Shown here: piece by piece, positions 1 to 63,772 of the stretch | Position numbering within the stretch: the first letter of the stretch is position 1 | Layout of the letters: each line of letters opens with the position of its first letter | Assembly (NCBI RefSeq): GCF_965363235.1 | Contig: NC_134838.1 | Coordinates: forward strand, 3,725,001 to 3,789,000 | Length of the DNA stretch: 64,000 nt | Source: Mytilus galloprovincialis | Taxonomy: Eukaryota; Mollusca; Bivalvia; Mytilida; Mytilidae | Reading direction: 5' to 3' | Position numbers and translations under genes: made by a program | The notes under the pieces: generated by a model | What the model was told of the DNA's origin: nothing | The model's database searches: none | The model's input: the letters and a program-made list of their open reading frames with translations, nothing else

Positions 1-1724
1 CATATATTTTATTACAATAGTTTATGAAAAGCTCTTTAATAGTAGTTAATGAATTTGTTAAAAGCACTGAAAGATTAGTTGTACAACACTTACTAGAGGC
101 CGAGATAAAACGAGATTTAAATGGTTTTTTGTGTAGTTTAGGTAGCCAATACATATAAGGGACCTTCAAATGTTTAGAAGAAGCCTTAAGCTTGCATGTA
201 GTATTTTTATTTCAAAAATCGAAATATTTTGTATACCTGCTCTGTTTATTTTTGCAAAGTCTTAAAAGTAAATAAGTGAATGCTTATCGAGTCGCACTCT
301 TTGTCGAGTTTACTTTAAATTCTCGAGTTAACTGTTGTGACTCGAGTTTCAACAATCAACGTTTACTTGAAACTCTCCACCTCACCAAGTCAGGGTTAAA
401 CTTGAGTAACCCTTGAAAGAAGTCAAGCCAATCAGATTTTGTCATTGTTTTACGCTTGATCAGGGACTTATCCTAGAGTTACCTAGATTTGTTCCGAATA
501 GCAACTGTAGTGCATTCACGTGATACTCTTGAAACTCTAAAATCGATTCTAGAGTTTCAAGTAAACTGGGTCATAGAGATAAAGTTATTTTTTTTGGTCA
601 TATTTAATATTGTTATCTAATAGGGTATTGGTATTGCTCTGCTCATAATTGTATCGTATTATCAACATTGATCGTGATTTTGTTCAGAATAATAATCGGG
701 GCTCAATGATATTTCATCAGTAAGGAATAATATAACCAAAGTGATGTTTTTTCTTCATTGTAATTCCTTTTCTTTTGGTCCACCAAATACATTTTATTAT
801 TGAACTTTGAAGTTTATTTCATACAATCATCACAATTATAATCACTACAAATATTCATAAATCTCTATATATATATGGTTGATCTAAATAAAGACAATAG
901 TAACTTAATATCACTTACAATAATATTTCAAATTTTGCATGTTCAAAATAAACTGTTTCGTCATCAGTATTTATTGATTAGCATTTAAAGTCTCTTTTGT
1001 TCGCCTCTCTTTTCCAGCACTACTTGCTATTGTGGGGTGGCCAGTTCTTTTAGTGGAGATCTGGAGAGAACCACTGACCTCCGTAGGAAAACTGACAATC
1101 CTAGTCAATTTAGATTTGAATCGAATGCATCTGCCACGTAGGGGATTAGAGATCGTTCACACGGGCACCTTCGACAGCACTTTTAAAACAAATGATCAAG
1201 TAAATACAGACAGAAGCAATCCCATTTACTGCAAGAGAAAATCCGAACGGTGTTGAATTATCACAATGAATGAGACTGAAAAAAAACTAAACGATCGAAA
1301 CTTACTTTACAACTGATTTTTCAGTCTTTTAAGAACTCCTTTGATTTAATAATTGTTTCAATGCAAAATCGATCTACTAGTGAATATCATATCATGGCTG
1401 ACTTTGATTTTTTTCAAAAGTATATAATTTAATGAAATTTATCGGTTCTTTTACCTCTTACAATTCCCATTGTTTACCTTTTCAATAATAAGCAATACGA
1501 TGCTACCTGTTTTTCAGTTTGGGAAAGAGTCATTCATTCCTCATACTGAAACGGTAAGATCATCAAGTAACTAATAATGTTACTAAGGTGCAGTGATTCT
1601 TTTTTATTTTATGATTAATAGTCATTTAAATCAAACTGATAACTTATATGTCATTTTTCCGGCGCAAAACTTGTTTACGACATTGGTAGTTTCTTAAAAT
1701 TTTTTCTTTAGTGTGAGGTTTTAT
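1..1724. other. Intergenic sequence downstream of receptor 1
   Basis: This A+T-rich stretch has no supported gene. It lies downstream of the first receptor gene, which is on the minus strand. It holds a near-perfect 34-bp palindrome at 528-561 within a region rich in inverted CTCGAG/GAAACTC words (about 285-565). A 74-codon open frame at 1032-1256 sits in what looks like an old dispersed repeat rather than a gene. Minus-strand AATAAA signals at about 1720-1725 (overlapping the receptor stop codon) and near 1602 could end the receptor transcript. Confidence 0.5.
528..561. repeat. 34-bp near-perfect palindrome
   Basis: The two halves, CTTGAAACTC and GAGTTTCAAG, mirror each other around an ATCGAT centre with one mismatched pair. 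Related inverted words lie upstream from about 285, so this may be the end of a degraded foldback element. Confidence 0.6.
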
Positions 1725-4700
1725 TCAACAATTAGAAGAAGATGATTTCTCATTGACCCTTGTGACAAAAGATAGAGACACTTGACCAGTAGGCTCTTTT
1801 CCTACTTCATTGTGGCCAATCTTAAACATTTTATGGAAATCTTTTTTAAATTTTTCATTTGAAAAATAATAAATAAAGAAATTAATCGATGGATGAAAAT
1901 GGGCAAACACTGTGATACAAAGATGCACTTCGTGGGAAAATGTATCGTTTGAATCAGCCACAAGCAATATTGCAAACGGTATCCAACAGATCGAAAATAT
2001 TGCATACACAATAAATATTGTTTTTGCAAGGCGCAAAGATTTATTGTCAATGACTGGTGCGTTTCCTCTACTTGTAACTTGTTTTCTTTTATGTCGGACA
2101 AATAAAAACAATTTTAAGTAAGAAATTCCTACAACTATCAAAGGAATCCACACAAGACAAACTGAAAATACAACAGTATAACTGTATGTTGCCATTCTGT
2201 CCCAAATACATTCCAAACTTTTGTCATCAAAACCATGCCCACCAATTCCACCATAATTAAGTAGAACCATGATCAGTCCAACTACATACAGTGATATACA
2301 CATTATGATACATGATCGCCGAGTAAATATTTTCTCGTAATGAGAGTTGTGACAGATTAATATGTATCTGTTGAAACTGAGCAATGTGATAGACCCAAGA
2401 GACACGATACATGAAACTGTACACATTTTCCCGATTATATCGCACAGAATTGGATACTGCATGAAGAATGGCCGGCCTTCAATTTTACCTGAAAAAAAAG
2501 AATTAAATGAAATGTTTATTTATTGAAGCGAAAACTAACATAAGTATTTATTTTCAAAATTCATGTAACAAAGGTAAAGCATTTGATTTACTGATTCGAT
2601 CCATAAAAAAATCATACTTGTACCGGTAAAAATGATGATTTACATATAATGTCAATTTGTAATATGAAATTAAACAGACCTAAAAAATCCAATTGCACGA
2701 GTTTTGCTTTCTATTTATATCTATATTTATGCTTGTATCGCTTACATGACCTCCGGAGGTTTTCGGAGGTCAACTCGATAGATAATTTAGATGGCGTGAA
2801 GACTTAACACAAGAAACGAAACTACATATATTCAAGTTCATGCCCTGTAAATTATTTTATAATTTGGATAAACGTTTTACATGGTTATCAATCCAATATG
2901 AAAATTTGAGTCAAATCGGTGGATATTTCATCTTTATCAAAGAGGGACGAAGGATACCAGAGAGACAGTCAGACTCATAAATCGAAAATAAACTGACAAC
3001 ACCATGACTAAAAATGAAAAAGACAAACAGTCAAATAATAGTACACATGACACAACATAGAAAACTGAAGAAAAAGCATCACGATCCCCACCAAAAACTA
3101 GGGGTCATCTCAAGTGCACCGGAAGGGTAAACAGATCCTGATCCACATGTGGCACTCATCGTGTTGCTCATATTATAATAAATCCGGTAAATAGTCTTAT
3201 TCGGTAGGTCACATTCATGAAAGGGAAGGGGATTGTAGTTACAACGTAAGGAACATATCCGATATCATCTGTGAAACAGTTATTCCATAACGGTCAACCA
3301 ACTCGTGATGGCGTCCGTAAAATTTACAAAGGGATGATTTCAACTTCAACATTTGGAACTCTAGGTTTAATAACTTCCTTGGGATCAGCAACCCTCTATC
3401 AAGAAAATCGTGATAGGAAATACATGCACGGGAATATCGTAACAATTAGGAGATATATATACCCCGTATGCAGGTGCTGCTGGAATGTTGCTACTTAGCA
3501 ATGGAAAGTCCACAATTATCTATAAACATCTAAAAGCATTAAGGACAACTGTTTATTCATATTTGTCATTAATTTATAATAAATATTTGTAGGCTTGATA
3601 TATGTCCTATTTCATCTCACCACCAAACAAGTTTTTTTTATATTCTGTTAACTATATTAACTGTTTACAAAATTTAGAATTTTTGAAAAACTAAGGCATT
3701 TCTACCTCAGGCATAGATTACCTTAGCTGTATTTGGCAAAACTTTTAGGAATTTGGTCCTTAATGCTCTTCAACTTCGTACCTTATTTGGCCGTTTTAAC
3801 TTTTTGGGGTTCGAGCGTCACTTATGAGTCTTTTGTAGACGAAACGCGCGTCTGGCGTATATACAAAATTTAGTCCTGGTATCTATGATGAGTTTATGAT
3901 AACAAATGTTTGATTATTTCGTAATATAACATCAGAACTTAGTATGGGTGAAAATATAAATATAATATAGATTTCAATGATTTCTTTGACATTAATTGAG
4001 GTTAATTAGATGTACCTTATTTCACAGTTGATAGCTCAATGAATATCTATCAAAATAATTGTATAATTAATTATTGTATATTTGTATTAGTTACATTATT
4101 CTATAATGTCAACTATGTTTTTCCTGTGACTCTACTGCACCAGAAATGTTATAACATATTATATATTATTCTGGTGGGCGGAGTTTCTCCATCTTTTTTG
4201 TGTGTTTTTCTGCTGTTCATTCATAAATCGGAAACTTATATCAGAATTCGGAAAATGGCCTACAGCAAATTAAAAATAGTATCTGTCTGAATTGAACACT
4301 CACTGCTGATATTCAATACTGTGGATTCATTTATTTTCGTGGATACCAATTTTCGCGGATTGACGAAAACGATCATTTTCGTGGATATTTGATTTCGTGG
4401 TTTTGCCAAAGTCTGGTTACATTCCTATAGAAAATTTGTAATTCGTTGGACATTGGAATTCGTGGTTTCCGGGTACCCACGAAATCCACGAAAATTGGTA
4501 TCCAACGAATAATATTGAATCCACAGTATAAGTAACCTATTTTATAGAGTTATTACTTTCTTACTATGTTATTCAGTGCTTTTTCAATCTTAACGTTTTG
4601 TTATGAATCACAATTAACTACCAAACTGCGTTAAAATTTAATTCAAGTGAAACATTAGATACTTCTTTCAGTTCCTTTATGTAATATGTTGCTTTATATA

Positions 4701-5928
4701 ATTATACTGCAGAAATTAACACAAGACTACTGGTTTAAAACAATCAAAACATAAGCAGAAATATTTGACATTTTAACACTTCATTCAACATAATTTTTCG
4801 AAGAGGTTACCCATTAGTGTCGATAGATTGCATGAATAAACGTTTGAAATAATCAAAACCTTAAACATATGTTTTAAAAAAGTAAAATCCTATTAATATT
4901 ATATTCTTATTCGAAACAATGATTTATTTTTAGACATAATACTGTAATTCCAATTTTCATTCAATCTCTTATTGTAGTTGCAATTCAAAGTATTGTTGCA
5001 TATCGAGTCCTTCATTATTATATATAGGACGTAGTGTAAACTCATATGCTAAACGACAAAATAAGAATTAAACAAAAAAAAAACTTTATACTTTGTGAGT
5101 ATTTTCAAAGCAAACATGATTGCCATACACCAATTGCAAAGTAACCTCTCAATCAAATTCTTCGAATATATCTCATTTTCCTCTCTTGAACTGTATATTC
5201 ATTTACTTCGCCATAAACGTAACCATAACTTATTCAGTAAATCTTTAAGAACTCTTTGTCGTCTTTGTATATCTTAGTCGTATTTGGCTTGGTATGAAAT
5301 TTTGAGTCCTCAATGCTCTTCAACTTTGTACTTGTTTGGTTTTAGAAATATTTTGAAATGAGCGTCACTGATGAGTCTTATGTAGACGAAACGCGCGTCT
5401 GACGTACTAAATTATAATCCTGGTAACTATGGTAAACAAACAATAAGATAAATCAGCATGTTTTGTTGGCATTATTTGTAAAAGTTACTTGATTGTATAC
5501 ATATTCTATAAAATACTTGATAAATATCTCGATATTCATAATTTAATACAATAAGTATAGACACTCTGATAAATTGACGAAATCGATGACCGTTCTGCAA
5601 AGTTAAGATACAGATATGTATTCTTTAAACCAACAAAAGAATCATACAGTAAGAAATATTACTTACCAACAACGCTCATAGGATCTGCTACCATAGTAAC
5701 GTACATGTCTGATATAGCTATATTGATGATGAATATGGACTGTACGCTCAACTTTCCCTTCGATCTGGCTGTAATAATCAAAATTAGAGCATTCCCGAAT
5801 GTTCCTACAAGAGATGCAATAGTCTGTAAAGCTATAGATGTAATTGCGAACCCAGGTGATTCCTGAATAAATTCATATTTTCCAAAATATTTGATAACGA
5901 TACTAGATATGTTGAGAGTAGTATTCAT
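1725..5928 (-). CDS. Class A GPCR, melatonin-receptor/moody-like (receptor 1; exons 5667-5928 and 1725-2488)
   Basis: Predicted 341-residue seven-helix receptor of the plasma membrane, ligand unknown. Exon 1 (87 codons plus one base) carries an N-terminus with NTT and NIS glycosylation sites, TM1 with the GN motif (N46) and TM2 with D74. It ends at a GTAAGT donor. Exon 2 begins after a pyrimidine-rich acceptor and completes the same Gly codon (phase 1), giving VVG-KIEGRPFF. Exon 2 holds the TM3 Cys (103) and ECL2 Cys (181) pair, NRY in place of DRY (127-129), the TM5 Pro (203), CWIP in TM6 (255-258) and NFFIY in place of NPxxY (290-294). NRY followed by ICH, and the missing TM7 Pro, are as in melatonin receptors; insect moody and Tre1 are also related. 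The C-tail is Ser-rich. The intron is 3.2 kb and full of repeats. The GPCR call is firm; the subfamily is inference. Confidence 0.88.
2560..2970 (+). repeat. Dispersed A+T-rich repeat, family E (intron of receptor 1)
   Basis: The text around 2580-2820 recurs with mismatches at about 9590-9810, and in reverse complement at about 36880-37270. Shared landmarks are TGATTCGATCCA, AATTGCACGAGTT and TTTCGGAGGTCAACTC. It has no coding capacity and its class is unknown. Confidence 0.6.
2935..3540 (-). mobile_element. PLE-2 3' fragment (end of RT ORF plus 3' tail)
   Basis: The minus-strand frame 3239-3445 encodes the C-terminal end of a reverse-transcriptase protein (FYGRHHELVDRYG and SQMISDMF). The main PLE-2 copy at 40320-42360 carries the matching nucleotide stretch near 40620-40800. 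The non-coding tail (2935-3238) recurs at 7095-7840, 40320-40620, 43620-43900 and 57540-57870. It is a 5'-truncated copy lying inside the receptor 1 intron. Assignment to the Penelope-like group rests on the longer copy. Confidence 0.65.
3735..3905 (+). repeat. Hammerhead-bearing dispersed repeat, copy 1 (decayed ribozyme 3815-3858)
   Basis: This is a ~150-bp repeat unit. The ribozyme core reads CTTATGA where the family has CTGATGA, a change at an invariant G of the hammerhead core, so self-cleavage is not expected. Stem II (GTC...GAC), GAAA, the CGCGCG stem III and the GTC cleavage triplet are all kept. Other copies are at 5278, 19556, 56870 and 63640. Confidence 0.7.
4319..4526. mobile_element. 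Palindromic MITE, 208 bp, TA target duplications
   Basis: The termini read CTGTGGATTCA and TGAATCCACAG, and the element is largely self-complementary through the words TTTTCGTGGATACCAATTTT and AAAATTGGTATCC. TA dinucleotides at 4317-4318 and 4527-4528 fit a Tc1/mariner-type target duplication. It is non-coding. The repeated CGTGGAT wording resembles a MITE widespread in mollusc genomes (recalled, not searched). Confidence 0.8.
5278..5432 (+). repeat. Hammerhead-bearing dispersed repeat, copy 2
   Basis: A ~150-bp unit opening with a segment on the pattern TGCTCTTCAACTTTGTAC and closing with TAAATTATAATCCTGGTA. It lies in the receptor 1 intron in antisense orientation to the gene. It contains the apparently intact ribozyme at 5362-5405. 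Confidence 0.8.
5362..5405 (+). ncRNA. Type I hammerhead ribozyme motif, apparently intact
   Basis: The order is as in a type I hammerhead. Stem I 5' strand GCGTCA is at 5362-5367, core CTGATGA at 5368-5374, and stem II GTC-loop-GAC at 5375-5387. Then come GAAA at 5388-5391, a minimal self-complementary stem III (ACGCGCGT) ending in the cleavage triplet GTC at 5397-5399, and stem I 3' strand TGACGT at 5400-5405. All six stem I pairs form, one of them a G-U. The core matches the Schistosoma satellite hammerhead pattern. Cleavage would follow base 5399. The RNA would be read antisense to the receptor transcript, so the ribozyme would act only if transcribed from the plus strand. Confidence 0.82.
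5564..5614 (-). promoter_or_regulatory. Intronic duplicate of the receptor 5' leader block
   Basis: This block matches the conserved leader found 25 bases upstream of the receptor 1 and receptor 2 start codons (5953-6005 and 16235-16283). Shared landmarks are CTCT..TAAATTGACGAA and CCGTTCTGCAA. Here it lies about 50 bases inside the intron, downstream of exon 1, with no second exon 1 beside it. It is best read as the stub of a partly deleted tandem duplicate. Confidence 0.55.
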
Positions 5929-5952
5929 AATTCAATTCTTTTGTTATATGAG

Positions 5953-6005
5953 CTCTAATAAATTGGTGAATGCAATGTCCGTTCTGCAATATCCAGATAC
6001 AGATG
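5953..6005 (-). promoter_or_regulatory. Conserved 5' leader block of receptor 1
   Basis: This block begins 25 bases upstream of the start codon and is shared with receptor 2 at the same offset (16235-16283). It is probably transcribed 5' UTR. Its role is unknown. Confidence 0.5.
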
Positions 6006-6084
6006 TCAACTGGTTAGTTTGCTGATGGTTAATCGTTGATTGGTATAATGTTTAAAAATTAAAGTAAATCAGAATGTTCTCCCC

Positions 6085-6090
6085 TTTATA
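6085..6090 (-). promoter_or_regulatory. TATA box of receptor 1
   Basis: The minus strand reads TATAAA, 162 bases before the ATG. The flanking text (GTTCTCC next to the box on the plus strand) is the same beside receptor 2, where the box lies 164 bases before its ATG. Conservation of box, flank and spacing supports a real core promoter. Confidence 0.6.
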
Positions 6091-6100
6091 AGTCTAATAT

Positions 6101-7094
6101 AACACCTACATGTTTAAAACTGTATAACCGTAAATGAATACGTCAAAGCAGTTTGTAATTGGTTAATGCATCAACAAAATTATTATATTTGCATTGGTTT
6201 TCAGTAATTTTTTCATTCTGGAAAAACGTCGGAAGTACAATACCAGTCATTTCCCTTGTTTACAGGCCACCTAGTATCTATTTTCCTTTATAGAGATGAC
6301 GTGCTGTCATCATAGATCTTTAATCATATCCTTGTATTACAACCCCTAATTAAAGGATAATTTCAAAGAAAGACGCGTCTCTGTATCACCATTCAATATA
6401 TTGTGATGTCTTTTCCCTACTGAGAGATATGGTATATAGCAGTATTTGGTAAAGTCCAATAAGACACTTCAATCTTTTGTTTTTAATGAGGGAGAGACGA
6501 CTTTGTGGGGACAATAAAAATATAAAATATCAGACAAAGTCAAAAAAGGAGCAACACCCTAGCCAACAGATGAATAACATTTAAATTACATTCATTCACT
6601 TATATATTCAGATTGTGCAAAATTAACCATTTCACAATCGTGAAAGATCAGACAAATAAAACTAATAAATCGATCATTTTTGGGGAGATTGAATGCATTT
6701 TCAACAGATGTAAAAACTATGAATCTGTCCTCAGGGGTGTCTGGCAAATGTTAAGTGAGAGAGTTATCTGTACTCGACTACTCTTTGTACTTAAAACATT
6801 TCATTTGTAAGATAATTTTTAGGGTGAGGTTAAGTTATGTTAATTTGTCATAGGAAAGAAAATAGATTTACAAATAAGAAGTGCACTTTTTTTTATTTAA
6901 CAATTATTATTTCCGGAATGACTGTTCAATCTTTTTATTATTATTTTATACTATTTTATCATCTTTTTTATTTTATTCTTCGTTTAGAATGACTGTACAC
7001 GCTCTGCTTATATCTAAATTGTATGCACTTATAAACACGATTATCTACATCAAACAAAAACATGTTTAAAAATTTTTGATGCCATAATACTTTT
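6101..7094. other. Intergenic A+T-rich sequence
   Basis: No gene or clear repeat was recognised between the receptor 1 promoter and the nested retroelement at 7095. The open frames here are short and unremarkable. Confidence 0.4.
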
Positions 7095-7840
7095 TGTTTT
7101 GTAAAAGAGGGGCGAATAATACCAGAGAGACAGTCAAACCCATAGATTGGACGTTATTTGACAACTCCATGGATAAAAATATATAAAGACAGACAGATAA
7201 TAGAACACACGTTTGATAATGTGTTACATATTTGTTTTTTGTTCATTTTTTGTACATAAATAAGGCCGTTAGTTTTCTCGTTTGAACTGTTTTACATTGT
7301 CATTTCGGGGCCTTATATAGCTGACTATGCTGTATGGGATTTGCTCTTTGTTGAAGTCCGTACGGTGACCTATAGTTGTTAATTTCTGTGTCATTTAAGT
7401 CTCTTGTAGAAAGTTGTCTCATTGGCAATCATACCACATTCTTTTTTATATATGAATAATAGTACACAAGACACAACATAGAAAACTAACGACTAAGCAA
7501 CACGAACCCTACCAAGAACTGGGGGTCATATCAGGTGCTCCGCAAGGATAAGAAGATCCTACTCCACACGTGGCACCCGTCGTGTTGCTTCTGTTATTAC
7601 AAATCCGGTAAATATTCTAGTTCGGTAGGTCACATTCGTGAAAATGGAAGGGTATTTTAGTTACGACATAAGGAACATATCCGACATCATCTTTGGAATG
7701 GTTATTCCATCAGCTCATGATCGCGTTCGTAAACTTTACAAGGAATGATTTCAACTTCATCATTTGGAACTATGGTTTTAAGAGCTTTCTTGTGAGCAGC
7801 AACCCTCTATCAAGAAAATCATGATAGAATTCTTTTGTTT
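7095..7840 (-). mobile_element. PLE-2 3' tail interrupted by a family C repeat
   Basis: The tail text (GACAGTCAAACCCATA, later GGTAGGTCACATTCGTG and AACCCTCTATCAAGAAAATC) matches the PLE-2 copies at 2935 and 40320 but is split. A family C repeat (about 7215-7450, plus orientation) lies between a left part ending near AATAGAACACAC and a right part restarting at AATAGTACACA. A degenerate further fragment occurs at about 7970-8170. Confidence 0.65.
7215..7450 (+). repeat. Dispersed repeat, family C (nested in PLE-2 tail)
   Basis: The 3' portion contains the family signature GTTGTCTCATTGGCAATCAT followed by a T-rich end. The same repeat occurs at 29930-30310, 34430-34830, 44100-44470 and 59570-59845 (plus) and at 43050-43400 and 56585-56715 (minus). 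It is non-coding. Insertion into PLE-2 with a duplicated target suggests retroposition. Confidence 0.6.
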
Positions 7841-8520
7841 TTGTCGGAGAGAGATTCCAATAAAACTGTATAGGATTAAATATAATTTAAAAGACTAGCG
7901 GAAGACACCAAATTCAAAATGCATATACGTTTTTCACAACTAATAACGCTATATTATAAAATGATAAACGAATAGAAAACTAAAGACTGCGCAACACGAA
8001 CACCATACAGGATGATCTCATATGCTCCGGAAAGGTAAGAAGATCCTGTTCTACTCAACACACCCTTAGTTTTGCTCCTATGTAAGTTCAAGCTCAGTGT
8101 AGGTGTTATTGGGTAATGTCACATTCAAGAAAAAGAGGATAGGATTATGAGTATGACAAGTAAAGATTTCCAATAAAACGACATACGAACGTTATTCGAC
8201 GTACGGACTTGCACTTTGTAAATACAGCTGTTTCCCAAGCCACGGAAAGATATATAATATTCAGTGATATGTTAATTTGTTAACGTAATTGTTCCTAGAT
8301 ATGATATCGTTGTTTCATCTCATAGAGACATAATTTGGGAATGTTACAATATAAAAAACATGGTAGCGTCTAAATTTTAATTCTTATGAGGGCCAAAAGT
8401 GGAGGAAAGGGCAGTATATATTTTTGTATACGTTTAAACTCTTACAGGTTCGCGGCATATAAATCTTAAAAATATGTCGAACAGCCCTATCTTTTGAACT
8501 ATATTTTGACCTTTGAATAA

Positions 8521-8800
8521 AAAAGAATTGCATATCAAAAACGTGAAATCACAAAAATACTGAACTCCGAGGAAAATTCGTAACGGAAAGTCCCTAATCA
8601 AAAGACAAAATCAAAAGATCACACACATTAACCGAATGGACAACAACTGTCATATTCCGGACCTAAAAATGGTGGATTGAACCTGATTGTATACCTCTCT
8701 CTTGTATGACAGTCGCATCAAATTCCATTCTTTTACAACGATGCGTGAACAAAACCGACAAATAGTTAAAATTCTTAAAATATAGGGTACAACTTTCCGT
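8521..8800 (+). repeat. Dispersed repeat, family B
   Basis: Signature words are ACTCCGAGGAAAATTC, GAAAGTCCCTAATCAAA and GGACAACAACTGTCA, with TATGACAGTCGCATCAAA further on. Other copies are at 23648-23960, 38797-38905, 50055-50330 and 54676-54950, and reversed at 55735-55815. It is non-coding and its class is unknown. Confidence 0.65.
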
Positions 8801-9189
8801 TCTTGGATATAATTAATTTTTCACGAAACTTCGTTGTAAAAGTGGCACAGTTTGAGCCGCAACGGGTGTTCCTCTGGGAAATTGCATTGTCTATATTTAC
8901 AGAATTGCAACCTTGAAAGAATGTTTCTTGCCAACCATTGGTTTTGGTTAAATACGTTGCTCATGTTTAAACCAATATCCAAGAGTTTTAAAATCCTACT
9001 CTAGTATTTTCGAATAATTCTAACAAAAAAAAATGATGAGAGAATTCATAAATTTTTACTTATCACGTGAGACTCTAGATAACCACCGTAATTCTCACTG
9101 ACATACCACCACGTATAAACAACACCTTACCTTTAAGGAAAACGTTTTATCCGAAGGATGATTTTCGGACAATTTCAAAAACTGTCTAA

Positions 9190-9960
9190 ATCAACTGTCA
9201 ATATCAGCGTTCAGAATATTGTTTTAATTTAATTTTTTCATTAAACGTATGAATAAAAAAAAAAGTCAATTTAAATGTTGTGTTTAAAAAGGTGTGCTCG
9301 ATTGAAAACTAAAGTATGATTTTTTTTTTGTTCAATCATCAATGAAAGTAAAATAATGAAATCATAATTCGCTTCAAGCAGTCAGTATGGTTCAATTTTG
9401 TTACATAAAGCTTAGAAACATTGATAATGAATTGTTTACTTGCAAGTGAATAAAACGACCTCATTGAATCCGTATTCATGTGAACTTCTATTCAACTCCT
9501 TAGCTAGAGATGGATAACGCATAAAGTGTGTGTGATCGTTATTCAAAGGAAAAGAAATTCAATATTGAAATTGAAACAATCGTTCCGAATTTGATTGACT
9601 GATTCGATCCACTAAAAATCTTTCTTGTGCAAGTAAAAACGATGATTAACATCTGTTTTAAATCTAAATTATAAAATCAAAAAGACCTAGAAAAATCTAA
9701 TTGCACGAGTTCGCTTTCTATTTGTATCTATATTTATGTTTATATCGCTTATATGACTATTGAGGGTCTTTCGGAGGTCAACTCAATAATTAATTAGATG
9801 GAATCAAGACTAAAATACACACATAGCAAAGTTACATATTATCAAGCCAATGTCCTGTAAATTGTTTATTTTAGACTTTCAATAATTTGGATATATGGTT
9901 ATAAATCAAATATGAACATGAATTTTACAGCTAGTGCCCCTTTAATCTCAATCTAGTTTA
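9190..9960 (+). repeat. Dispersed A+T-rich repeat, family E (longest copy)
   Basis: This is the longest of three copies. Its first half (ACTTGCAAGTGAATAA, TCCGTATTCATGTGAACTTC) is matched in reverse complement at 36880-37270. Its second half is matched at 2560-2970. It ends with AGCTAGTGCCCCTTTAATC, recalled at 37240-37255. It has no recognisable ORF. Confidence 0.6.
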
Positions 9961-10127
9961 ACATATAATAAATGTTCGTGGTGTCTGCATATATTTCTTT
10001 TTTATTGTTTCAATTATTACTAATAAACATGATATGATTTGAGCTGTGTCGGATAAAATCAACCTTATGTAAATGAATACCAATACATCTGTTAACCTAT
10101 TTCGGGTTGAAATATAAATGCAACTGT

Positions 10128-10700
10128 TTAAGGAGGCTCGCGGGTGCAAAAATTTCCGCAAAAGATTAACCATTTGTTTTTTTCATTACAAATTTTATTT
10201 ATTACACTATTAGTTATTACTTTATGATTTGGTACAAAAATCAACAAAAAAAAAATTGATTCTGTTTGACCCCAGATGACTTTTAAAATGTTTATATCAT
10301 TGAAAAAGCTGCAAATTATCTCCCTTTGGTGCAAAAATGCCTTTTTTTGGCATTTAAATTGAAATATCTTTTATAACTCATTGGTGACCTATATTTGTTG
10401 TTATTGTTTTCAAATAAGGTGTACTAAATAATTGTAAAATTTATGCGATTTCTGTAATTTAGTTTTTTTTTAATTCGATATTACCTCTATTTCTCCTATT
10501 AGTTCAAAAGAAAAAAAGGACATTTACAAAAATGTATGCTTCTTTCGAAGACAGATTGCGAGCTTAAATGAACGGTGACCTCATTTTTTTATTTCATTTA
10601 TCTATTTTATCTAAAAGTATATGATAAAGTTCTTTTATAGAAAAATATAGCGAAATCCTATATTTAAAAAAATATTGATTTATACCCGCGAGCCCCTTAT
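10128..10700. mobile_element. Non-autonomous TIR element, ~565 bp, TTAA-type
   Basis: The ends read GGAGGCTCGCGGGT and ACCCGCGAGCCCC, inverted and one base different in length. The left end follows TTAA (10128-10131) and the right end is followed by TTAT, probably a mutated TTAA. The interior is A+T-rich and non-coding. TTAA targets are used by piggyBac and Kolobok transposons. Confidence 0.65.
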
Positions 10701-12437
10701 GAACTCTACAAAACAGTCAAAGATTCTTTTATAATTTCGTATTTGAATGTTCTAAACCCAACCTTTAGTCTTGAACATGTACATGTATACGTGCACTTTT
10801 AAACAATCGATTTTATATCTGACGACGATTCTTATCTTAGTTTATTTAACTTTTGATGCGGTACTGCATAATTGGATCCTGACTTAGGAAAGTGTGTCTA
10901 GTGGCTAGATTGCTAATACAAATATCGTTACGCATCGTGATTGGAGTATTAATTGATGATATTAACCTTGTTAAATTCGTTTAAGAACTTCTTAAAGTTA
11001 AAGTAAATGTTTGCCTGAAATTTTGTAGAATATTTAAATGTTATGTTATTGTAAACACTATCTCCTGTTTTTAATTGTATATGTTTTTGTATACCTTTGC
11101 ATCATTGAGTTTTCCAACAGTATAGCATTTTTGTACGGTTGCAATGATAACATCGAAGGTGTAGAAAGTTATCAAATCCAACCTGCATTGATGGTATGAG
11201 TTGTTCAGCACTAATTCAAAACACAAGCGGAGTCAAAAACATTACCAGCGTCTAAATTTGGGAAAAAAATATAAATCTAGATTACTCACAGGGAGCTTTG
11301 ATGTCGTCATTTCAAATCTCCATCATTCGCTTAGGTAACATACAGTTTTTTGAATGCCTTATATTTAATAAGATTATGCACTTGCAAAGGATGATTGAGT
11401 ATGTTTTCTCAATATAAAGAATGTATATGTAGCTAGTTTTCTTCTATTTAAATCAGTAAGAACAGATCATTGCACGATATAAAATACGAAATTTATTTAC
11501 ATTCAATTTTTAAATAATGGAATTGATGCTGTCAACATCAGATATGTTCTTCACCACAATGTAATCACAAATCCAGTTTCTTTTTTAATTGAATTTGTTC
11601 TTTTTTTACTCCTACAGTTACATCAAACCCATTTGATTTAGAATCTGTAGCCATAAACAAACATGACAAGACTTTGATTAAGAAACACCCTTTAAAATGT
11701 GACGTTTCAATTTCTCCAATGTATATGTTCCGGACCATATGAGTATTTGGACCATACGCGTATGGTCATGACCATATGCGACTTTTACGTCAGGTTATAG
11801 TAAAACAGTTGACTTCTTGTGTAACAGTTCATTAAGATATTTTTGCACTCGTAATAACATATCGGTAATGGAAAAAAAATGTGTATTTACTATAGTTTTG
11901 ACTAGTGATGAAATTTACTGTGTGAAACTGCTTATTTTATTTTGTTAATCTTCTTCGTTATTACTAATACTAATTTTTAATGAAAAAATGACCTTTGATA
12001 GTCTTTTTAATGACGTGACAACTAGAGGTAAGCATAAATGTACCTCTTAATTACCCCGACCATACGCGTTTTTGGTTGCATTGTAGTTTCTGTGTGTGTG
12101 TTGCATTGTCGTTTTGGTTTTTTATAGCACTTCAGTCTTTCTGTTGTTTCGTTGTTTTCCTGTTTATAGTTTATGTGTTTACCTCAGTTTAAGTTTGTAA
12201 CCCGGATTTGTTTTCTCTCTATCGATTAATGACTTTCAACAGCGGTATACTACTGTTACCTTTATTTTTCATGTATTAAGCATTTCATATCACCTCACAA
12301 TGATATTTTTTTTTATATTTCGCTGCTTTGTAATGAACTCTCTTGTTAACAAATCATGAAGTTTAACTGTATCATGGTTTAGCTTGAATTGTGAAATTTG
12401 TTTAAAATGCATGTACCAAGTGAGGAGTATGACAGTT
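10701..12437. other. Intergenic A+T-rich sequence
   Basis: No gene was recognised. A short GACCATA/TATGGTC inverted cluster lies at 11730-11790, and the related word CCGACCATACGCG recurs at 12057. These may be the ends of a small decayed element of about 330 bp. The rest shows nothing I can name. Confidence 0.35.
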
Positions 12438-17913: not shown

Positions 17914-20900
17914 ACGCCATTTGATACAGACTGATCTGCTACAATCACTCTTGCTTGGTTTATCTTTACTCCATCTACAAAAATCAAGAGGTCAAAATCA
18001 GTCCAGTACATTTTGGATCTAATGTTATTTAATCTGGTTTATCTTCATGTGTGAAATTAACAAACTTATCTTATAGTCATAAAACTACTACCAACAAAAT
18101 TTAACACCAAAAATTGTTAGCCTTTTAACATAAAAATATCAAAGATACATAATAGGCGTAGATGTAAGCAAAGTCCCCGACATGTAAAAAAAATAATTCA
18201 ATTGAAAGAAGAAAAAACAACTGCTTGATTTATGATCAAATCAAGATTCACCAACGAACAACAACCCCTGAATAACTGGCACTGGCTCCCGACAAAAAGT
18301 TCTCATTGAATAAACAATCTTTTAATGGCTTGTCTTGAATGTCTTTCATTTCTGCATGAAACTCTCATTAACACTAGTAGCTAAAACTATGAAATGAGTC
18401 CACTTTTTTGGTTTTATATATAAAGAGTTTTCTTTCTAAAAGGAATAACAGATTGGTGCAATTCAATGCAGTATAATTGACTATCTGAATTCTTAACTTC
18501 ATGTGTGTAACCATGTGCATTTACATTTACCTGGACTGACTCTGATTGTTACATTGTTTCCCTCCACAGTCTTAACCGACAGGTTTTTAAGTCCTGCGCT
18601 GTAATAGGTCAGTGGTATCACGTGGTATGTTAAGACTTCCGTCAGAGCTGTGATATTCTTCGACAACTTCTCAAGGAATCCAGCTGGTAACTTTTCAAAG
18701 GCTTCGTTTGTTGGTGCAAACAATGTGTATGGATCTGGACCTAGAATTAATTAAGAAATAATTGATACAAGCTATACTTTATTGCAGTTTTAACATGGGT
18801 AGGCATTTTATTCGTGATTAGTTTTGCCCGAGCGATAGTGAGGGCTAAAATAACACGAATATAATGCCTACCCATGTTAAAACTTAACAATAAAGTATAG
18901 CTTGCATAAATTATTTCGATTCTGATTAGGACAATTAAGGTAATTTCTATGTCAGATGTCTATAAGGGAAAAGCGATTGTGTAGGCTCTTCCGTGAACCT
19001 CCCTTTGTTGTTTGTAAAGAAGCAAACAGCTGGCACTGTGATTTTTCAGAGGGAGAAGTTTTTGAACAGCCAGCATGAATGGTTGTCGTATCCAGGTCAA
19101 ATATGTCGGAATGCAACAGATTACAGTCATAATAAAATAAAACAACATGTGCATCGTTTAAGAGTTTGGAAGTGTTTTAAGTTAGTGAAATATATTAAAT
19201 GCATGCTAATTTGATAAAATTCATTATTCTGCAGTAGTCAATATACGCATGTGCAAAAACAAATTATTTGATTAGAGCATGGTTTTATTTATAAAGCGAA
19301 AGAAGCATGTCATATTAAAATAAGAAACAAAAATATGATATCGAGTATATCAATATGTTTCAGTCCCGGAATAATCCCAAATAAGATCCAAAAAGCTGGA
19401 AAATTTCTATAAATCAGGGTTGTGATTTTACTATGACATGGATCTTTGCAAAAAATAAATATCTAAGACAGATATGTGTTAACCCTATCCGGATACCTTG
19501 ACAGCACGTGCCTTCATATGACATATTAATACATTTCTTGATAGTCAAACATTTTTTAGGAATTTTAGGTCTTTAATTCTCTTCAACTTTTTACTTGTTT
19601 GGCTTTATAACTATTTTGATCTGAGCGTCACTGACGAGTCTTATGTAGACGAAATGCGCGCCAGGCGTATTAAATTATAAGCCTGGTACCTTTGATAACT
19701 ATTTTATCTAGTTTTTATGTAATATACATACCGGACAATGTCTTGACCAGTTTGGCCAAAGTAACAGCTTTTACCAAAGTCATTAAATCTTTATTTTTAG
19801 CCACAGTAGCTACAAGGTTTTCCGTTGGGAGAGGAAACATAACTCTACTTATAACGTGTATCACTCCGTTTGATGCCTTTTGGTCAGCTAATACCACTGG
19901 ACTTCCTGTAGCAGTCACCAGCTATAAATATAAAAGGTCTTGTATTATAAAATCAGTATTTATAAGTAAAATATAACATTGAATAAAGTGTGAATGTAAC
20001 TGTACCTCAAAAAAGGTAGCAGTTACTAGCTAGAAATTAACGTCTTGTACTCAGTATCTATCTGAATAATATAACAGGGAATCAAGTGCACTTCCCAAAA
20101 CTATTTGAAGGAAGTAATGAATGCCCTGTCTGTCTGCCAGACACATACTTTATGCATCACATAACTGTATCGCGCTTAATTATCACAGAGTTTGAATTTC
20201 GTGAGTTCAAAGGGAAACTTTTTTTTTTATGTCTTAAATTCTTATTGTTCTTAAAAATCAAATTTTTCCCCAAACTTTCCCTTTTATCCCGAATAAGCGA
20301 AAACAAGACTCTCGTAAATTGTCAAATTGACTGTACGTAAGGGCAGGGAAAAAGCTGTCTTATTACTTTGGAAAAAAAATTACACGAGAGGATTTTTTTT
20401 CTGCTATTTTTGTCCGCCTCTGTTCTACAAAATAAAATAACTAGATAATATTTTGTTTATCTTAAAGTTGCTATATCCTTGCATTATATAAGGGGAAGGG
20501 GATATAGTTCACCATTTTGTTTGTAACACTGTTACCACGTTACAATACAGGAACACTTTTTGTCAAATCGTTAAAAGACACATATTAAGCTAATTTAACT
20601 TAATATTAGTAGCCTTGACGTTCATTGTTTTTTTTGTAAGGTTTTATCAGTTTGTTTTTAAAGGGTCTCAAAATCGTTGCCTTCTCATAACTTGAGATTT
20701 TTCAACCACTGTATCTTTTATTGTTGATAAGTTAGGGTCGAGAAATCTTTATTTTATGTGTAACGTTACCTCTACCATTTGTTCTATTGTTATGATATAT
20801 TTCTTTTTACTATCCTAAAACTACACTTTTTTCTGATCGATTATCTTTGAATAGAAATCGAAAATAAAATATTTTTAAAACACTATTTTACTTTATAAAA

Positions 20901-27446: not shown

Positions 27447-28029
27447 AAAGGAGTAGGTCCGATAAGGGCCGATTTTGGCCTCAATTTTTAAGTTCATATA
27501 ACGACATATTTTAGACACTTTTTAAACACTTAAGTGTCTATTTCAAATGAATCAATTAGTTTATGTTAAAGATTTTAACTGATTAAGTCATTAAAAACGC
27601 TCCGATTCAAACTGAAATATGAAAAATCTATCAAATATGCCAAAAATCGTCACTTTTCAGATGTTTTTTGTCAAAAATGAAAGTGGCCGCATCCGGGTTC
27701 ATCCTCAACCTTTATATATATTATGTATTATCATCAAATTCAACTTACATTTCAATATCACGAATGAACACGAATGCGGCCACTTTCATTTAAGACGGAA
27801 ACCGTCTAAAATTTAGCGAAAATGCTGAAATTGTGAAGATTTCAGTAAATTAGCATGACTTAATGATACTAGTACACGATATCTGTGCATTGTATTGTCA
27901 AAAACAGCCCATATTTAAGTAGCAGAACCATACTTCTTTCCAATAAATAGCTTAACGATTACATTTTCACAATTTTGTAAAACTGCTATATTTTGGGGCT
28001 AAAAAGGGTCTTACTGAACCTACTCCTTT
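27447..28029. mobile_element. Non-autonomous TIR element, ~583 bp
   Basis: The imperfect terminal inverted repeats start AAAGGAGTAGGTCCGATAAG on the left. On the right, read in reverse complement, they start AAAGGAGTAGGTTCAGTAAG. Inside is a second inverted pair, AATGAAAGTGGCCGCAT / ATGCGGCCACTTTCATT (27676-27692 and 27774-27790). No transposase or clear target duplication was seen. Confidence 0.7.
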
Positions 28030-63163: not shown

Positions 63164-63639
63164 TTTTTCACTCGGTTTTAGTATGTTTCTCTCAATTAAA
63201 TTATAACTTAAAAACACAGGCAAACTACGGTTGCCCATATTTGATTTAAAACAAATATATTGCCTGAAACTGATATAATTATAAATGCTTTATATCTTTA
63301 TGCAGAAAGTTTTCTTCAGTTAAAAAATGTTCTGTTTTTAATATAGGCAATCATATGAACCAACTAAATCTTGCCAACATGTTCATTTGTTCATATGAGT
63401 AATGAAAAAATATCCTTCAACAAAAATACCGAAACATCACGTTATAAATTTCATGTGTCCGAATTGCTTTTCTGGATTCATCGTGTATGCTTAAGGCCTA
63501 ATATTTGAAAGCCATTGATGTATAAGAACCGAACAGTTGAAGAGCTATAGAATTTTATATAACCAAAGGATTAAAATGAATGTAATCTCCAAAAAAATTT
63601 ACGAACACCATTATTCTTTGGTGTTCATATTTGTAATAA

Positions 63640-63772
63640 TAGTTATCAAAAGTACCAGGATTATAATTTAGTACGCCAGACGCGCGTTTCGTCTACATAA
63701 GACTCATCAGTGACGCTCATATCAAAATATTTATAAAGCCAAACAAGTACAAAGTTGAAGAGCACAAATACG
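63640..63772 (-). repeat. Hammerhead-bearing dispersed repeat, copy 5
   Basis: This is a complete reversed unit, with the family's text on both sides of an intact ribozyme core at 63673-63716. Confidence 0.8.
63673..63716 (-). ncRNA. Type I hammerhead ribozyme motif, apparently intact
   Basis: On the minus strand: GCGTCA (63716-63711), CTGATGA (63710-63704), GTC-loop-GAC (63703-63691), GAAA (63690-63687), then CGCGCGTC with cleavage after 63679. TGGCGT (63678-63673) closes stem I with six pairs, two of them G-U. Here the ribozyme is in the same sense as the presumed receptor 4 transcript, so it could act in that intron. Confidence 0.82.

Follow-up and report, generated by a model that had tools for sequence, protein, structure and literature searches.

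A hammerhead motif antisense to a predicted GPCR gene

The window, meaning the whole 64,000-nt stretch of Mytilus galloprovincialis DNA analysed (C1:3725001-3789000), carries on its minus strand a well-supported rhodopsin-type GPCR gene, and the intron between two of its exons holds two copies of a dispersed repeat, one of which bears the hammerhead motif studied here (Table 1). Minus-strand frames at 1728-2519 and 5662-5931 matched positions 56-260 and 1-43, respectively, of the Pfam 7tm_1 profile, and although the match of 22.1 bits in the second frame would by itself fall below the Pfam cut-off of 30.5, its order relative to the 93.2-bit match in the first is correct. The placement of the intron is likewise well supported, with a donor GT at 5666-5665, an acceptor AG at 2490-2489 and a frame that is unshifted across the junction. 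The upper limit of exon 5667-5931 is that of its open frame, the start codon not being fixed. The first-pass annotation had located the motif inside a GPCR intron, and both the splice sites and the order of the 7tm_1 matches bear this out, with the qualification that the gene runs on the opposite strand. The hammerhead is thus antisense to the gene and would be unable to cut the GPCR pre-mRNA, which carries its complement.

The covariance-model search proposed in the first-pass annotation returned a full-length match to Rfam Hammerhead_1 (RF00163) on the plus strand at exactly the expected place, with a score of 33.8 bits and E values of 1.8e-7 for the 91 bases searched and 1.3e-4 for the whole window, but this score lies 0.2 bits short of the curated gathering score of 34, and a default scan at that threshold leaves the motif unlisted. 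In the Rfam alignment every conserved core letter is present, as had been claimed, and the three stems form with stem I open, the arrangement of a type I hammerhead. All six positions of stem I pair, one of them as G-U, again in line with the first description; the compensating differences that it had read into this stem, however, did not hold. Among 129 motifs compared, the 3' strand of stem I is TGGCGT in 105 and TGACGT in five, and the change seen at 5400-5405 converts a G-U into an A-U pair. A compensatory change was therefore rejected, since one strand alone had altered. The exact 38-mer formed by the core and TGACGT was found at 197 places in the genome, the focal copy included.

The self-cleavage site, which we take from established hammerhead numbering applied to the Rfam alignment, is predicted to follow C5399, and RNA of the copy would probably still be able to cleave itself. 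Nearest-neighbour folding gave the motif no support (z 0.43), the hammerhead fold reaching -6.3 kcal/mol against -9.6 kcal/mol for the best fold, with an ensemble share of about 0.0009, by energies that ignore the non-canonical contacts of the hammerhead core. These energies, like a score short of the curated cut-off, are what a chance resemblance to a hammerhead might produce, yet such a coincidence has a negligible probability given the complete core letters, the E value over the window, the thousands of identical cores described below and the activity published for what is apparently the same family (PMC7229834).

The copy that contains the motif is 166 bp long (35.5% G+C), not the 150 bp first estimated, and aligned locally to the majority sequence of a repeat unit of about 355 bp with 151 identities, 13 mismatches and 7 gap positions. 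The exact 32-nt hammerhead core occurs twice in the window, at 5368-5399 (+) and 63679-63710 (-), and with up to three mismatches four times, compared with none in 100 shuffles. Three further copies of the repeat were recovered in the window, which corrects the term "solitary" used initially. No tandem pair of hammerheads is present at the focal locus, the nearest other copy found being 1.5 kb off and broken in its core, and no LTR pair or direct repeat flanks the focal copy within 4500-6500. Elsewhere in the window, 27655-27811 can be drawn as a hairpin with 75-nt arms, 71% complementary, and a 7-nt loop; its matches to microRNA families were far under the cut-offs, and it is possibly a small inverted-repeat element.

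Table 1. Features of the window, with coordinates counted from its first base
Feature	Position	Strand	Evidence or remark
GPCR exon, 7tm_1 profile positions 56-260, includes stop codon	1725-2488	-	E 2.4e-26, 93.2 bits
Predicted GPCR intron containing the focal and second copies, both antisense to the gene	2489-5666	-	
Second copy, same intron as focal copy; core broken (CTTATGA)	3653-3889	+	Rfam 24.1 bits
Focal copy: 5'-truncated solo retrozyme copy (unit 182-350 of ~355)	5270-5435	+	local alignment, genome-wide relatives
Type I hammerhead ribozyme motif	5362-5405	+	Rfam RF00163, 33.8 bits, E 1.3e-4 over window
Stem I 5' strand, pairing with 5400-5405 (5 Watson-Crick, 1 G-U)	5362-5367	+	sequence, Rfam alignment
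Stem-loop II, 4 bp, 5-nt loop	5375-5387	+	sequence, Rfam alignment
Stem-loop III, 2 bp, 4-nt loop (Rfam: 4 bp, loopless)	5391-5398	+	sequence, Rfam alignment
Predicted self-cleavage site, C5399 (H17) / T5400 (N1.1)	5399-5400	+	Rfam alignment
Stem I 3' strand TGACGT (family norm TGGCGT)	5400-5405	+	129 motifs compared
GPCR exon, 7tm_1 profile positions 1-43	5667-5931	-	E 1.2e-4, 22.1 bits
Third copy, core broken at U16.1	19549-19704	+	
Fourth copy, intact hammerhead at 63673-63716	63632-63764	-	33.0 bits

Abundance and arrangement of the repeat family

Across the genome (1.385 Gb in 331 contigs), the exact 32-nt core was matched 8,870 times (4,270 on the plus and 4,600 on the minus strand), whereas its reversed control was not matched at all. 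The unit to which these cores belong measures 355 bp and has a G+C content of 38.9%. When the first 100 exact cores listed of the 8,870, all of them on C1, were grouped at distances within 1.5 kb, they formed 81 clusters, 67 of which hold one intact core, a count in which some lone cores may be adjoined by decayed units. Lone cores are therefore normal in the sampled part of the genome. Inside the clusters, 13 of 19 core-to-core intervals measured 354-359 bp and the rest 178, 225, 336, 716, 725 and 1277 bp. At one locus (L072) two intact cores, at G000:C1:5210240 (+) and 5210418 (-), face each other 178 bp apart and could form a hairpin transcript. The longest listed frame in the units of the array at locus L043 encodes 94 aa, four frames gave no Pfam match, and none of the viral contigs searched contains the 24-nt core stretch used as query.

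Twenty sampled loci with relatives of the focal copy, 17 of them fetched by their exact core, yielded 24 hammerheads at E values up to 1, of which 17 scored 33.0 bits, three 33.8, one 36.1 and the remainder 31.1, 31.0 and 24.7. A hammerhead of at least 33.0 bits was present at 17 of these 20 other loci. Since the related hammerheads mostly score 33.0-33.8 bits, a score under the cut-off is a property of the family and not of the focal copy; only the 36.1-bit hammerhead passes, and the Rfam gathering score overlooks this mussel retrozyme family at 19 of the 20 loci, that is, most of the sampled copies.

Units of tandem arrays were compared in 20 arrays (61 units), leaving out repeat views of one array and three loci (L028, L083 and L089) whose near-full units were not adjacent and on one strand. 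Identity was 95.2% within arrays (77 pairs) and 91.9% between them (1753 pairs), a difference seen in 19 of the 20 arrays. Such likeness would follow from repeated copying of a single circle, and local homogenisation or gene conversion could also explain it.

Conservation of the hammerhead core

The focal copy differs from the unit at 12 of 120 aligned positions outside the hammerhead and at one of 44 inside it (Fisher p 0.19). Genome-wide, exact matches number 8,870 for the core, 5,796 for the tail and 3,293 for the upstream 32-mer; these raw counts favour the core, as constraint on source elements would, and are confounded by truncation and subfamily variants. On C1 to 19.68 Mb, copies with an exact upstream 32-mer retained an exact core in 20 of 56 cases and an exact tail in 12 of 56 (p 0.14), while those with an exact tail retained the core in 20 of 73 and the upstream 32-mer in 12 of 73 (p 0.16). 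The 61 array units diverge by 2.6% within the 44-nt hammerhead and by 4.5% elsewhere, a contrast that is biased because several arrays had been fetched by their intact core. Three comparisons hint at an excess of core conservation and none settles it; for the core of the focal copy the excess is not significant.

The intact core of the focal copy, and the fact that its sole hammerhead substitution turns a stem I G-U into an A-U pair, could be read as signs of a domesticated ribozyme kept by selection and acting on the GPCR transcript or on an antisense RNA, much as a role in mRNA biogenesis has been ascribed to a small number of conserved hammerheads of amniotes (PMC7229834). Domestication is nevertheless extremely improbable here, given that one in 44 against 12 in 120 is no significant difference, that the motif lies on the strand opposite the gene, that identical cores are found in their thousands, and that well-kept copies elsewhere retain the core no more often than the tail to a significant degree (20/56 and 12/56).

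Ends of the copies

Gapped extension from all 55 exact-core places on C1 to 11.54 Mb (L043-L092) delimited 46 stretches, and the 3' ends of 40 fall inside one 14-nt interval (unit 348-355 or 1-6), at a distance of 34-47 nt, or about 41 nt, from the predicted cut on its 3' side. In contrast, the 5' ends are scattered, with two of the 46 inside that interval (p 6.7e-17). The six exceptions end at unit positions 334, 293, 66, 314, 127 and 188, and by eye some of them appear to be alignment breaks or rearrangements. In a second sample (L002-L042), whose members were picked because their DNA was similar or because they adjoined a similar stretch, an exact core being required and two stretches that hit a locus edge being dropped, 28 of 35 stretches have the usual 3' end and seven do not. 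The focal copy is included in both samples, every stretch of which was selected for an exact core; the first version of the analysis had given 36 canonical 3' ends among 48. Of the 40 stretches in the first sample with the usual 3' end, 24 span at most one unit and 16 are longer (95-1206 bp). Together with the prevalence of single-core clusters, this removes the contrast drawn in the first-pass annotation between a solitary repeat here and typical retrozymes.

Target-site duplications were sought in 36 flank pairs, with ends from the first version of the analysis, and were not found, the longest shared word averaging 5.92 nt compared with 5.65 +- 0.19 nt (highest 5.97) in 20 re-pairings; it is consequently the end pattern that makes the case for target-primed integration. 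A gathering of 5' ends at the cut site was rejected, as one of 81 (the focal copy counted twice) lies within 2 nt of it. That one, at position 1182 of locus L057 (minus orientation), begins with the base that directly follows the predicted cut, which at this frequency may be chance. Locus L075 contains, in minus orientation at about 1445-1560, a copy whose end coincides with the predicted cut site to the base; by eye, part of the element follows it in inverted form.

We also scrutinized eight loci with an exact tail and an inexact core, hand-picked from 53 known places of this kind. All eight proved to be the same retrozyme with an altered hammerhead region, running past the cut site; two (L096 and L097) are altered in a loop alone and the other six carry further changes. 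No other element sharing the tail was seen in the roughly 200 bases upstream at these loci.

The array at L043, which has three hammerheads, is enclosed by a decayed open frame (1071-1247, 2320-2694 and 2631-3032 of the locus). To the eye this resembles a reverse transcriptase, perhaps a Penelope-like or related one; three of its pieces gave no Pfam match, and one piece searched against the PDB gave none there.

Penelope-like elements encode reverse transcriptase, and 5' truncation occurs in them. The first-pass annotation had offered a Penelope terminal repeat as a possible source of the focal copy, and type I hammerheads do occur in elements of this type, which are present in mussels alongside retrozymes (PMC7229834); the setting of the L043 array could be read in the same sense. 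However, that array interrupts the frame and does not bound it, and the hammerheads of Penelope-like elements are described as minimal and atypical (PMC7229834), whereas the focal motif matches the whole type I model. Moreover, the eight loci above show the retrozyme and no second element, and none of 13 frames of at least 70 aa in window 1-12000 matched a Pfam reverse transcriptase or GIY-YIG family, the matches obtained being the two GPCR frames with 7tm_1 and one weak, sub-cut-off match to another family. In the loci and frames sampled a Penelope origin is thus not shown, and we rate it as very unlikely.

Origin of the focal copy and a proposed insertion route

Taken as a whole, the locus is very probably explained as an old, 5'-truncated single copy of an abundant non-LTR retrozyme that lies antisense in a GPCR intron. 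As published for Mytilus, and by extension here, multimeric retrozyme transcripts would be cleaved by their own hammerheads, the released unit would be circularised by a ligase of the host, and the resulting RNA circle would be copied into new sites by a reverse transcriptase that the element borrows. We place the probable start of reverse transcription at one position some 41 nt beyond the cut, on a joined or uncut template. The combination of a fixed 3' end with scattered 5' ends points to such a fixed start, and probably to a template in which the cut site is joined: on a self-cut linear template the enzyme would run off after about 41 nt. The sampled copies run past that point because they were selected for an exact core, but so do all eight of the hand-picked tail-exact loci that lack one, so the template would be either a circle or uncut RNA. 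Synthesis that stopped within one unit would give solo copies, synthesis that continued past it would give tandem arrays, and one such event may have left the focal copy in the intron, antisense to the gene.

Solo copies might alternatively have been reverse-transcribed from uncut linear read-through transcripts instead of circles, as the end pattern demands only that the cut site be joined in the template and a ribozyme as slow as that of the mussel retrozyme (about 0.1 per min; PMC7229834) leaves uncut RNA. We regard this route as possible though rather unlikely: units are more alike inside arrays than between them, and the RNA reported from mussel tissue is mainly circular (PMC7229834). Read-through of solo copies would in addition be predicted to bring upstream host sequence along. 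Retaining the circular template, we propose more generally that animal retrozymes insert in the manner of 5'-truncated SINEs, with a fixed start on a closed circle, no target-site duplications, solo copies as the normal outcome and arrays as the product of multiple rounds, a generalisation that in our estimate has an even chance of being right.

With one hammerhead alone, the focal copy cannot release a unit and is for that reason most likely an inert relic. Of the possibilities first raised, the solo relic of a retrozyme is therefore the best reading, and it is unlikely to be an element active in its own right, given the single hammerhead, the 5' truncation, the 10% divergence outside the ribozyme and a core excess that is not significant. 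As one of thousands the copy by itself matters little; the family-wide end pattern matters more, because a fixed 3' end is a testable clue to how animal retrozymes re-enter DNA and supplies a motif for a helper search. No mention of animal retrozymes ending at a fixed 3' point was found among the titles and abstract openings listed, which cover few subscription journals.

Comparison with known systems

Plant LTR retrozymes (PMC4918200), as described in PMC7229834, are likewise non-autonomous and hammerhead-bearing, with an RNA circle as the proposed intermediate. They differ in that their hammerheads are of type III and that they possess LTRs, a primer-binding site and target-site duplications of 4 bp. 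Penelope-like elements and Terminons share with the present family type I hammerheads and a tandem occurrence, but their hammerheads are minimal (PMC7229834, PMC7761336). In the unit of about 355 bp described here no protein family was found. Penelope-like elements have been suggested as retrozyme helpers (PMC7229834), and a 2020 review states that such repeats have no conserved motif from which the autonomous retrotransposon used could be deduced (PMC7761336).

The closest counterpart is the Mytilus non-LTR retrozyme of Cervera and de la Pena (2020), for which about 5000 type I hammerheads in repeats of about 350-390 bp, together with RNA circles (clones deposited in GenBank as MN642551-MN642576), were reported from M. 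galloprovincialis (PMC7229834). The family described here has the features of metazoan non-LTR retrozymes, namely a unit in the range of about 170-400 bp that contains a single type I hammerhead, a tandem arrangement at some loci, low G+C, no LTR and no coding capacity. By description, not by letters, it fits the published Mytilus element in unit size, copy number in the thousands, ribozyme type, tandem arrays and low G+C, as well as in the absence of an LTR pair around the focal copy (PMC7229834). The focal copy differs from that description in being solo and 5'-truncated, and the family in that lone cores dominate the sampled part of the genome and that its copies share the fixed 3' end described here.
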